Origin: Alphaproteobacteria bacterium
GTDB taxonomy: Bacteria > Pseudomonadota > Alphaproteobacteria > Sphingomonadales > Emcibacteraceae
NCBI GenBank assembly: GCA_030428615.1
Contig: JAUIDN010000004.1
Location: 62,001 to 126,000, forward strand
DNA: 64,000 nucleotides
Direction of reading: 5' to 3'
Both the position numbers and the translations under genes were made by a program. Shown here in pieces: positions 32,081 to 34,544 of this stretch (position 1 is the stretch's first letter; the number at the start of each line of letters is the position of its first letter). The notes below the pieces were generated by a model. The model saw only the letters and a program-made list of their open reading frames with translations, was not told the origin of the DNA and searched no databases.

Positions 32081-32223
32081 GGGTGTTCAGGGCGGATTTT
32101 TAGGTCAAAATGCTGAACCTTTATAAAGCGGAGTAATCAGGAATTAATGATTTAATAATATATCATTGATATGATAATCGGTAAGCATTTCTGCTGTTGG
32201 AATTGGCCAGTGGGGAGGATAAA

Positions 32224-33921
32224 ATTCATATTTTTTTTCAAAAAAATGTCCTTTTTTTGTTGTCCTTATTTTCATTGATATTATTCAACGCTGGTGCTGT
32301 GTATGGACAAAGATCAGATTTTTCATCCGAAATCGGCCTTACAATAGATGAACAACAATGGTTAGCGCAGAATAAAAACATAATCGTAGCCTCTGACCCA
32401 ACGATGGCACCACTGGAGTTTATTGATCAACATGGTGAAATAAGCGGTATTGCGGGCGAATATTTAAAGTTAATATCACAACGGCTTAATATAAATTTTA
32501 TCTGGTCCGGTAATAAAAGCTGGGCCGAAGGTATGGAAAAAATAGCGTCCCACGAAGCTGATATTGTCTCCGGCGCGAATAATACGGCTGCCCGTCGTGA
32601 GTTTCTTACATTTACAGAAAGCTATTTAAATGTTTCGCATATGATTTTCGCCCGTTCTGGGGGTGAAACGTTTGGCAACATGGATGGTCTGTCAGGATAT
32701 AAAATTTCTCAGGTAAAGGGATTTGCCGTGGCAAAAAGCATTGCCAATGATTATCCCGATATTGAAATTATTGAAACTGATACTGTCGCAGATGCATTAC
32801 ATCTTGTTGCCGATGGTAAAGTGGACGCTTATGTTGGCAGTATTTCCATTGCCGCCTATTATATAGCACAGGAAGGTCTTTTGGAGCTTTCCGTAGTTGG
32901 TGGCACACCTTACAGAGGCGAAAATGCCATCGGCATAAGAAACGAACTTCCTTTGCTTGCTAGTGCCATGCAAAAGGTAATGGCGGCAATCACACCGCAA
33001 GAAAAGGCGGAAATTTCCAGAAAATGGCTCGCGTTAAATTATGAAGCAACCGAAAATTATGATTTACTCATAAAGGTCGGTGTTGGAACCATCATTGTTA
33101 TGGCACTTATCTTATTTTGGAATTACAGCCTGCGCAACGAAGTGAATATGAGAAAAGATGCGCAAAAAGAAATGCTTATTTCCCGTGAAAAAGCCAAATT
33201 AGCTCAAGCGGAAGCAGAAGAAGCCAATGCTGCGAAATCAAGGTTCCTTGCCAATATGTCTCACGAGATCCGGACGCCCCTTAATGCAATTATCGGTTTC
33301 TCCGAGAGCATGTCACTTGGAATTCATGGTGAAATAAAACAACCTAAATATAGGGATTACCTGCATGATATTACCGATAGCGGCAAGCATCTTGAAGCGG
33401 TAATAAATGATATTCTTGATCTGTCAAAAATTGAAGCCGGAAAATGGCAATTTGATAAAGTTGAATTTCTACTGGATGACTGTATTAAATCGGCGATAAA
33501 AATGCTTGAATCTCAAGCCGTAGATAAAAATATAGAAATTATATACGAAAATATCACCGATCATCGTAATCTTCATATCGTCGGGGACGAAAATGCGTAT
33601 AAACGCATTATTATCAATCTGCTTTCCAATGCGGTGAAATTTACTGATGCAGGCGGTAAAATAATATGTCAGGCGAGTAGGCAGGAGGATGGCGCCATAA
33701 AGCTTGCGGTTATTGATAACGGTATAGGCATACCTGAGAGCCAGTTGGATGAAGTATTGTTGCCATTTGGCCAAATTCACGAAACGCGCGAATTAAATAA
33801 ATCTGGTACAGGACTTGGGCTGCCCATTGTTAAGCAACTGGTGGAATTGCAGGGTGGGAAGTTTAGCCTAAAAAGTAAAGTTGGCCATGGTACCAGTGCT
33901 ATTATTTCTATATATTCATAA
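32224..33921 (+). CDS. Sensor histidine kinase with periplasmic SBP3 ligand-binding domain
   Basis: About 565 residues: signal-type helix, periplasmic substrate-binding-protein-like domain (about 40-265), membrane helix (about 283-303), coiled linker, HisKA with H347 in M-S-H-E-I-R-T-P-L-N, and HATPase with N-L-L-S-N-A-V-K-F, D-N-G-I-G-I-P and G-T-G-L-G-L. No receiver domain and no response regulator nearby, so it is an orphan. No ATG, GTG or TTG follows the strong GGGGAGG at 32212-32218 at a usable distance; the in-frame ATT at 32224 lies 5 nt after it and yields a proper signal peptide. A TTG at 32197 is the alternative. Confidence 0.85.
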   Translation: MHIFFQKNVLFLLSLFSLILFNAGAVYGQRSDFSSEIGLTIDEQQWLAQNKNIIVASDPTMAPLEFIDQHGEISGIAGEYLKLISQRLNINFIWSGNKSWAEGMEKIASHEADIVSGANNTAARREFLTFTESYLNVSHMIFARSGGETFGNMDGLSGYKISQVKGFAVAKSIANDYPDIEIIETDTVADALHLVADGKVDAYVGSISIAAYYIAQEGLLELSVVGGTPYRGENAIGIRNELPLLASAMQKVMAAITPQEKAEISRKWLALNYEATENYDLLIKVGVGTIIVMALILFWNYSLRNEVNMRKDAQKEMLISREKAKLAQAEAEEANAAKSRFLANMSHEIRTPLNAIIGFSESMSLGIHGEIKQPKYRDYLHDITDSGKHLEAVINDILDLSKIEAGKWQFDKVEFLLDDCIKSAIKMLESQAVDKNIEIIYENITDHRNLHIVGDENAYKRIIINLLSNAVKFTDAGGKIICQASRQEDGAIKLAVIDNGIGIPESQLDEVLLPFGQIHETRELNKSGTGLGLPIVKQLVELQGGKFSLKSKVGHGTSAIISIYS

Positions 33922-33982: not shown

Positions 33983-34020
33983 TTGCTTTAATAATATATT
34001 TGCATTATTGTGCAAATATA
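33983..34020 (+). promoter_or_regulatory. Promoter and operator of the arsR-metallothionein operon
   Basis: A perfect inverted repeat with 10-bp arms TATATTTGCA / TGCAAATATA and spacer TTATTG occupies 33995-34020. It covers the predicted -10 TATTGT (34006-34011), which lies 17 bp after TTGCTT (33983-33988). Long AT-rich palindromes over the core promoter are the usual ArsR/SmtB operators, so metal release of the repressor should switch the operon on. Confidence 0.7.
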
Positions 34021-34036
34021 CATATGAGGTGGTCAC

Positions 34037-34333
34037 ATGGAAACGGAACTGGTGTTTAAGGCGCTTAGCGATCCAAACCGGATGAAAATACTGAACAACT
34101 TATGCAGCAGGGATTGTCCCTGCAACGTGGGGGATGTGGCTTGCTGCTGCACGGTGGACCTTTCGGTGGTCAGCCGCCACTTAAGCATACTGAAGAATGC
34201 CGGGATAATTTCGGCTGAAAAACGGGGTAAGGAAGTCTTTTACCACGTAAACAGGAAGGAAGTTGCCGCGCTTCTACGACAAACTGCGGAAAATATCGAA
34301 AAACATGTTGTTCATGAAAGGAGATACAAATGA
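34037..34333 (+). CDS. ArsR/SmtB-family metal-sensing repressor
   Basis: A 98-residue winged-helix repressor: A-L-S-D-P-N-R-M-K-I-L at the N-terminus and D-L-S-V-V-S-R-H-L-S-I-L-K as the recognition helix (about 41-53). Six cysteines precede and enter the recognition helix (23, 27, 29, 36, 37, 38), a rich thiolate site suited to soft metals or arsenite, but not matching the classical C-V-C-D-L exactly. Its TGA overlaps the start of the Cys-rich peptide gene (ATGA), so the pair is coupled and self-regulated through the palindrome in front. Confidence 0.92.
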   Translation: METELVFKALSDPNRMKILNNLCSRDCPCNVGDVACCCTVDLSVVSRHLSILKNAGIISAEKRGKEVFYHVNRKEVAALLRQTAENIEKHVVHERRYK

Positions 34334-34425
34334 CAACGGAAAAGCAAGAAGAAAACAAAAACAAAGAATGCGATTGTGAGGGCGGCTGTGACTGTTCCAA
34401 GTGCGATTGCAAATGTTGTCACTGA
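34330..34425 (+). CDS. Metallothionein-like Cys-rich peptide
   Basis: A 31-residue peptide. After a hydrophilic, Lys/Glu/Asn-rich start come eight cysteines (14, 16, 20, 22, 25, 27, 29, 30) as three C-D-C units plus a C-C-H end. That density and the C-x-C spacing are those of metallothioneins, yet the length is about half that of SmtA and no family is recognised. AAGGAG stands 7 nt ahead of the ATG, inside the repressor gene, and the ATGA overlap couples translation. Role inferred: buffering the metal sensed by the repressor. Confidence 0.75.
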   Translation: MTTEKQEENKNKECDCEGGCDCSKCDCKCCH

Positions 34426-34435
34426 ACATAAAAAT

Positions 34436-34467
34436 GGCGTTTATCATCGTGCCTGATGATAAACGCC
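34436..34467 (+). repeat. Long perfect inverted repeat after the metallothionein-like gene
   Basis: Thirteen-bp arms GGCGTTTATCATC / GATGATAAACGCC with loop GTGCCT, 11 bp after the stop. There is no T run, so it may stabilise the short mRNA or act as a factor-assisted terminator. Confidence 0.65.
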
Positions 34468-34511
34468 GGAACAGCTCATAGAACTGCTCTTTGAAAACAA
34501 AATTATAAAGG

Positions 34512-34544
34512 CCGGCGGGTTTATATTCGATCCGCCGGTTTTTT
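34512..34544. terminator. Intrinsic terminator
   Basis: CCGGCGG and CCGCCGG arms followed by TTTTTT. It ends the plus-strand metal operon and contains the last bases of the convergent amidase gene (TAA at 34545-34543). Confidence 0.88.

Follow-up and report, generated by a model that had tools for sequence, protein, structure and literature searches.

Organization of the locus

The window (the whole 64 kb stretch of DNA analyzed here) belongs to a genome of 3.39 Mb assembled in 41 contigs. It carries a gene of the ArsR/SmtB repressor family followed by a gene for a very short cysteine-rich peptide (Table 1). The initial annotation had paired an ArsR-type gene with a 31-residue, eight-cysteine ORF, and both ORFs were confirmed. 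The ORF translation, MTTEKQEENKNKECDCEGGCDCSKCDCKCCH, contains the three CDC units and the CCH end that had been read in it, and the AAAGGAG sequence serving as its predicted ribosome-binding site is present as described. AGGAG also stands shortly before the peptide start in each of the four complete relatives from the same genus, and a ribosome-binding site is found in 5/5 units.

Genes encoding a histidine kinase and a CDF cation-efflux protein lie 5' of arsR, and an amidase gene in convergent orientation lies 3' of the unit. The CDF gene is located at most approximately 110 nt upstream of arsR in three of the five complete units (G008, G010 and G012), while about 700 nt separate the two genes in G006. 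Among the five complete units, a histidine kinase gene between the CDF gene and arsR was seen in the window only.

Table 1. Features of the arsR-peptide locus (window coordinates)
Feature	Position	Strand	Description
Histidine kinase gene	32197-33921		With solute-binding domain; between CDF pump gene and arsR
Predicted promoter	33983-34011	+	-35 TTGCTT (33983-33988), 17-nt spacer, -10 TATTGT (34006-34011)
Candidate operator	33995-34020	.	Perfect 10-bp inverted arms with 6-nt centre, over the -10 box
Operator core	33999-34016	.	TTTGCATTATTGTGCAAA
arsR	34037-34333	+	ArsR/SmtB-family repressor, 98 aa, frame-shifted tail HVVHERRYK
Ribosome-binding site of peptide gene	34317-34323	+	AAAGGAG, read from sequence
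Mini-metallothionein-like peptide gene	34330-34425	+	31 aa, 8 Cys
Perfect 13-bp hairpin	34436-34467	.	Directly 3' of the peptide ORF; conservation follows that of the unit
G+C-rich 15-bp hairpin with U run	34507-34543	+	Probable terminator of the two-gene unit

The two genes had also been described as overlapping by ATGA. This is true of the window but of none of the four complete relatives: in three of them 10-12 nt separate the two genes, and in G012 the genes overlap by a single base (TAATG).

Promoter, operator and 3' hairpins

The layout TTG-N20-TATTGT recurs at the same spacing in 7/7 same-genus arsR leaders. A generic promoter scan did not list this promoter, which falls below the consensus cut-off of that scan. 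Over the -10 box lies an inverted repeat, the candidate operator, in which ATTTGCATTATTGTGCA is identical in 7/7 same-genus arsR leaders. It had been called a perfect 26-bp palindrome; its 10-bp arms are indeed perfect, but the 6-nt centre is not palindromic and 20 of the 26 bases are paired. The arms were read directly from the sequence, as a repeat search with a 12-nt minimum does not list 10-bp arms. The window genome has a single exact copy of the operator and seven further sites with three mismatches. Shuffled windows contain 0.26 such sites per 64 kb, or approximately 14 when scaled to 3.39 Mb, so the seven sites are at chance level. Four of them were inspected with their neighbors: three are inside ORFs and one spans an ORF junction, with no evident metal-resistance gene.

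Two hairpins follow the peptide gene. The first, a 13-bp hairpin, is present in 5/5 units and in 0/4 loci without the unit. Its stem (GGCG-TTAT...ATAA-CGCC) is kept, with compensatory changes at two pairs. It has no U run on the + strand and was scored as an opposite-strand terminator. The second, which is G+C-rich and carries a U run, was not listed by the terminator scan; its position also folds in the consensus of the five units, with some pairs broken and one row shortened. The 3' region as a whole folds with a z-score of -5.72. A separate structured RNA element at this site was considered and rejected: a search of Rfam at E-values up to 1 gave three matches, all below their gathering scores, the best by bits being SR1 (20.6 against a gathering score of 45). 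Leader-peptide attenuation was likewise tried as a role for the peptide ORF and rejected, because what comes next is a probable terminator and the convergent amidase gene, with no close co-directional gene seen.

The peptide gene

The peptide has eight cysteines within a 17-residue stop-free stretch, while the runner-up stretches of the real window have six. When 64 kb were simulated 40 times with a first-order Markov model, the maximum was six cysteines in 10 simulations, five in 29 and four in one. The ORF was found behind arsR in all five same-genus genomes (including that of the window) with readable downstream sequence, and its frame is unbroken in these units. The encoded peptides are 29-39 aa long, with eight cysteines in four of them and 14 in one (G012), and 8/8 aligned cysteine columns are invariant across the five.

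Codon changes were counted in the 17-codon core of the four eight-cysteine forms (six pairwise comparisons). Summed over the pairs, there are 46 synonymous and 15 non-synonymous differences, with zero at cysteine codons. The synonymous/non-synonymous counts per pair are 7/1, 8/4, 11/0, 9/5, 9/1 and 2/4; the last of these, G008 against G010, counts against the function proposed below.

The initial annotation had recognized no known metallothionein family in the peptide, and profile searches agree. None of the five peptides matched Pfam at E-values up to 1, no PDB chain was matched by the window peptide at E-values up to 10, and there was no match in NCBIfam. PF02069, the SmtA/BmtA family, had no match in any of the 13 genus genomes at an E-value of 0.01, with the Synechococcus control matching. 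Of the proposal that this is a novel mini-metallothionein, one part is supported by the data: a real gene for a mini-metallothionein-like peptide, maintained by selection, follows a repressor of ArsR type. The other part, that the product binds metal as a metallothionein does, is predicted from its cysteine content and its CxC/CC layout.

Distribution of the unit

This arsR gene was detected at an E-value of 1e-12 in 7/13 same-genus genomes, counting that of the window, and is absent from 6/13. Downstream sequence is readable in five of the seven, the arsR genes of the other two being cut by contig ends. In four of the six genomes without arsR (G001, G005, G007 and G009), approximately 1.5 kb of the CDF locus was read and neither arsR nor the peptide gene is present there. 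An amidase gene, as found behind the unit, comes after the CDF gene in G001, G005 and G009, while G007 has other genes there. Since the unit is lacking behind the same pump gene in four relatives, arsR and the peptide gene appear from sequence to be a discrete cassette that is gained or lost whole. At the G007 locus (L147), the CDF gene is followed by an unrelated 93-residue ORF with several cysteines and, by eye, a signal-peptide-like start.

A search of 99 relatives with the ArsR protein gave eight matches at an E-value of 1e-12, of which one is outside the genus (G074, related at the order level, 38% identity). An ArsR profile run against 385 genomes of the class at an E-value of 1e-18 matched the window genome and one distant ArsR. 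Plasmid sequences yielded 19 records, every one below 60% identity. The peptide profile matched 4/60 relatives (including the window genome) and 1/398 genomes of the phylum (the window genome itself), but this absence elsewhere is weak evidence, as the profile missed the 14-cysteine form of G012 at an E-value of 0.01 even though G012 is one of its rows.

The initial annotation had suggested looking for short cysteine-rich ORFs behind related ArsR genes. Within the genus such an ORF is present in 5/5 readable cases. In the 500 nt behind the ArsR genes of loci L016-L095 there are few ORFs with 5-8 cysteines, several of which sit in other frames of longer genes, and only those of L016-L018, which belong to the genus, resemble the peptide by eye. 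Loci L013 and L015 were left out of this search, and the sequences of L024 and L047 end inside arsR.

The repressor

The window ArsR passes the cut-offs of ArsR/SmtB family models and of none narrower: PF01022 (35.4 bits, cut-off 22) and NF033788 (75.2 bits, cut-off 55). The nearest solved structure by sequence score is SmtB; the AfArsR structure 6j05 is distant (E-value: 1.4e-4). Three alpha-5 zinc ligands of SmtB (D104, H106 and H117) align with R73, E75 and N86 of the window protein, so that none of the three is kept. In a by-eye ungapped comparison with CVC-bearing ArsRs (R773 not included), the CxC positions correspond to N30 and G32.

The ArsR of all four complete relatives reads through to EKxCCS, followed in G012 by NNRRN. 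In the window protein, the last nine residues (HVVHERRYK) are out of the relatives' frame and replace this Cys-Cys tail. According to the available part of PMC11868830, AfArsR-type (type 2) arsenic sensors have a C-terminal Cys95-Cys96-Cys102. The three-cysteine tail was not found here: the four complete relatives have an adjacent pair with no third tail cysteine, and the window protein has none. From this comparison, the Cys-Cys tail of the window protein is either lost or mis-assembled, with intact copies existing in relatives. Accordingly, induction in the window genome may be altered.

A stronger version of this reading is that the unit is decaying in the window genome, with a real frame shift in arsR that leaves the repressor no longer inducible or no longer repressing. 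Loss of a tail present in 4/4 complete relatives is what decay would produce. The peptide gene, the operator and the DNA-binding region are nevertheless intact, and an indel confined to a single genome, the one available for its species, in a 41-contig draft may be an artifact of sequencing or assembly. We therefore regard decay as rather unlikely.

Relationship to ArsRs preceding arsM and hgcA

To place the repressor, we used the best 80 of 498 confirmed ArsR loci, picked through the motifs FKALxDPN and MKILNxLC; because of the motif selection and the restriction to the best 80, the sample is biased with respect to the clade. The closest relatives among these 80 are two from Emcibacteraceae, two from Alphaproteobacteria and one from Kordiimonadaceae, with 85-94% identity over the matched stretch. 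In a quick tree of the 80 sequences (only 111 columns), the five genus sequences form a clade (99) nested in a clade of 34 (SH-aLRT 98). The 29 non-genus members from this best-80 sample share 39-57% identity with the window ArsR; they belong to Planctomycetota, Myxococcota, Acidobacteriota, Fermentibacteria and further groups. The gene following arsR in these 29 is arsM in 17, hgcA in five, an ACR3-like gene in one and none of these three in six, with the arsM call for L040 being weak (E-value about 1e-10). Where neighbors were checked against NCBIfam curated cut-offs, 1/1 ArsM and 3/3 HgcA proteins passed.

The non-genus members of this clade, again within the best 80 of 498, were also compared for their cysteines. 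Cys37 and Cys38 of the window protein are cysteines in 21/29 and 20/29 of them, respectively, and an adjacent cysteine pair close to the C-terminus was seen by eye in 24/29, five having none.

Leaders were then compared over 200 nt upstream of the arsR segment that the search had matched, with the 18-mer of the genus as reference and a site accepted at p < 0.05 against 200 shuffles of each leader. A site like the genus operator was found in 28/30 leaders of the group and in 0/44 of the other ArsR loci from the same 80 of 498, the likeness having been noticed beforehand in 20 of the tested leaders. No such site was found for L040 (p 0.075) or for L048 (p 0.995), the latter just outside the 34-sequence clade; control L092 was dropped as it has less than 80 nt upstream. 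An operator of the kind TTTGCAT-N5-YGCAAA is common to arsR genes located before arsM or hgcA in several phyla (leaders L019-L046, L050 and L093), and is a candidate for a common regulatory motif of arsenic and mercury methylation.

The window ArsR thus shares both the nesting in the arsM/hgcA-linked clade and the operator of that clade. It does not have an adjacent arsM or hgcA gene: the peptide gene occupies this position in the five readable genus units, and tblastn searches for the two genes were negative in L016-L018. On these sequence features, the repressor belongs with the arsM- and hgcA-linked ArsRs and is not SmtB-like.

Arsenic genes elsewhere in the genus

The window genome encodes an ACR3 arsenite efflux protein (L123:1198-2226, 430 bits, cut-off 282.8). 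No arsR gene was found in the 3.6 kb read around it, and by eye its upstream region has no copy of the operator, so the window ArsR does not visibly control ACR3. The ACR3-type family PF01758 has a match in 7/13 genus genomes; the unit-bearing genomes G010 and G012 have none at an E-value of 1e-10. No ArsM match was found in the window genome at an E-value of 1e-15. In the genus, 9/13 genomes match in the ArsM search, mostly through partial pieces of frames of 380-400 residues, and such matches are for this reason not evidence of ArsM. G009, which lacks the arsR-peptide unit, has an ArsM-like methyltransferase gene (L108:1375-2421) that is 40% identical to a portion of the query (E-value: 3e-32).

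Proposed function of the unit

We consider it probable, with some reserve, that the locus is a two-gene, autorepressed mini-metallothionein operon whose inducer is most probably trivalent arsenic or a similar thiophile and not zinc. An ArsR dimer bound to the inverted repeat over the -10 box would keep its own gene switched off. Binding of a thiophilic metal or metalloid (As(III) or methylarsenite being the most probable) to cysteine thiols of the repressor would release it, and the short transcript made as a result, predicted to end at the G+C-rich hairpin with its U run, would yield more ArsR along with the 29-39-residue peptide. The eight peptide thiols (14 in G012) could then trap the inducer, or soft metals related to it, in thiolate complexes. 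This model starts from the gene order, the promoter-operator geometry, the conservation of the peptide and its cysteines, the presence or absence of the unit, and the clade and operator placement, all read from the sequences compared. Repression, the identity of the inducer, metal binding and a benefit to the cell are the steps that the model predicts.

Trivalent arsenic is proposed as inducer because the clade mostly precedes arsM, because an arsR-arsM-arsC operon is governed by a repressor responsive to As(III) and MAs(III), and because hgcAB of ND132 is reported to be under ArsR control with an arsenic response. The first of these repressors is of a different ArsR type (extract of PMC11868830), and the second is known to us as cited in the available part of PMC10349881. 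Against arsenic, the relatives from which the inducer is deduced (best 80 of 498) are only 39-57% identical and precede enzymes, not peptides. As this kind of repressor elsewhere stands before genes for the methylation of arsenic and mercury, the peptide probably acts as a tiny metal trap that is produced in response to arsenic or to an element with a comparable affinity for thiols. Peptides rich in cysteine often bind Zn, Cd and Cu, and the physiological cargo may therefore be a different one. The more specific idea of a bacterial, gene-encoded, As(III)-chelating mini-metallothionein under the repressor and operator common to the arsM/hgcAB group is put forward as tentative.

The initial annotation had instead drawn an analogy to smtB-smtA. 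Taken literally, this would make the unit a Zn, Cd or Cu metallothionein operon, with a repressor that senses a di- or monovalent metal and a peptide that acts as its buffer. The logic of a repressor with a cysteine-rich peptide is the same, SmtB is the nearest solved structure by sequence score, in 3/5 complete units the gene for a CDF cation pump is found no more than about 110 nt upstream, and short fungal peptides of this kind (Neurospora) are generally known to bind Cu(I). The analogy holds for the logic but not for the parts. The two genes are co-directional, none of the three ligands D104, H106 and H117 is kept (R73, E75 and N86), there is no PF02069 match, and both the repressor and its operator cluster with those of the arsM/hgcA-linked group; the CDF gene, moreover, is also found where the unit is absent. 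An operon of this type appears unlikely, if still worth weighing.

Two further readings concern the peptide itself. It could be an accessory for signaling or delivery, acting as a thiol buffer or as a carrier of metal to adjust the repressor or supply a pump, and not a bulk sink; the very small size of the peptide, its place directly behind the regulator and the proximity of the CDF pump gene, at most about 110 nt before arsR in 3/5 complete units, would fit such a role. The 14-cysteine form of G012 points to capacity, however, and the pump gene occurs without the unit in four genomes, making this role improbable. That the peptide is a chance ORF in the 3' region and no gene, as its mere 31 codons and lack of a database family might suggest, is contradicted by the simulations, the codon pattern, the cysteine conservation across species and the ribosome-binding site in 5/5 units, and is very nearly negligible.

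Comparison with known systems

The autorepressed arsenic-type operon that we favor shares the logic of a repressor with a cysteine-rich peptide with smtB-smtA of Synechococcus and AzuR-NmtA of Anabaena. SmtA is approximately twice the size of the window peptide, which has no match to the SmtA family, and the window repressor is of the arsM/hgcA-linked kind. In the extracts available, both known systems are described as an ArsR/SmtB repressor controlling a cysteine-rich metal-binding protein via an inverted repeat in the promoter (PMC7387436, PMC8790569); smtB is divergent from its target and azuR is elsewhere in the genome, whereas the window genes are co-directional neighbors.

The unit has the same ArsR clade, operator sequence and regulator-first position as arsR-arsM operons, but where these have an arsenite methyltransferase gene next, it has the peptide gene. 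A parallel difference separates it from the ArsR-hgcAB units of mercury methylators, which carry mercury-methylation genes where the window unit carries the peptide; 5/29 non-genus clade members (best 80 of 498) precede hgcA. The metallothionein of Neurospora crassa (25 aa, PDB 1t2y), a short CxC-rich sequence that binds Cu(I) and is copper-regulated, is like the window peptide very short and CxC-rich but differs in its cysteine spacing. ArsR-like genes near hgcAB and arsM have been noted before (PMC7438021, in the part available). A model peptide of the AfArsR tail had a much higher affinity for Hg(II) than for As(III) (extract of PMC11212059), which cautions against reading the physiological cargo from the affinity of a peptide.

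Novelty and implications

In the titles and abstract openings of the literature retrieved, we found no bacterial arsenic-responsive metallothionein and no arsR-peptide operon, nor did we find a paper joining hgcAB, ArsR, palindrome and promoter. Within that literature, the repressor group has no earlier link to a peptide, and the sequences described here indicate a new mini-metallothionein-like family under its predicted control. A 2020 paper counts two bacterial metallothioneins with investigated function (PMC7387436, extract). A family of 29-39 residues, found via its ArsR neighbor, would extend the metallothioneins to sizes readily overlooked by gene finders.

Chelation of As(III) inside the cell is listed as a eukaryotic route in the available part of a 2025 paper (PMC11868830), and a bacterial arsenic-responsive chelator peptide would therefore be a new route. 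If this reading of the unit is true, bacteria would respond to arsenic by peptide chelation in addition to efflux and methylation. For the question of how mercury-methylation genes are controlled, the candidate operator common to arsM, hgcA and peptide units across phyla would provide a concrete motif.
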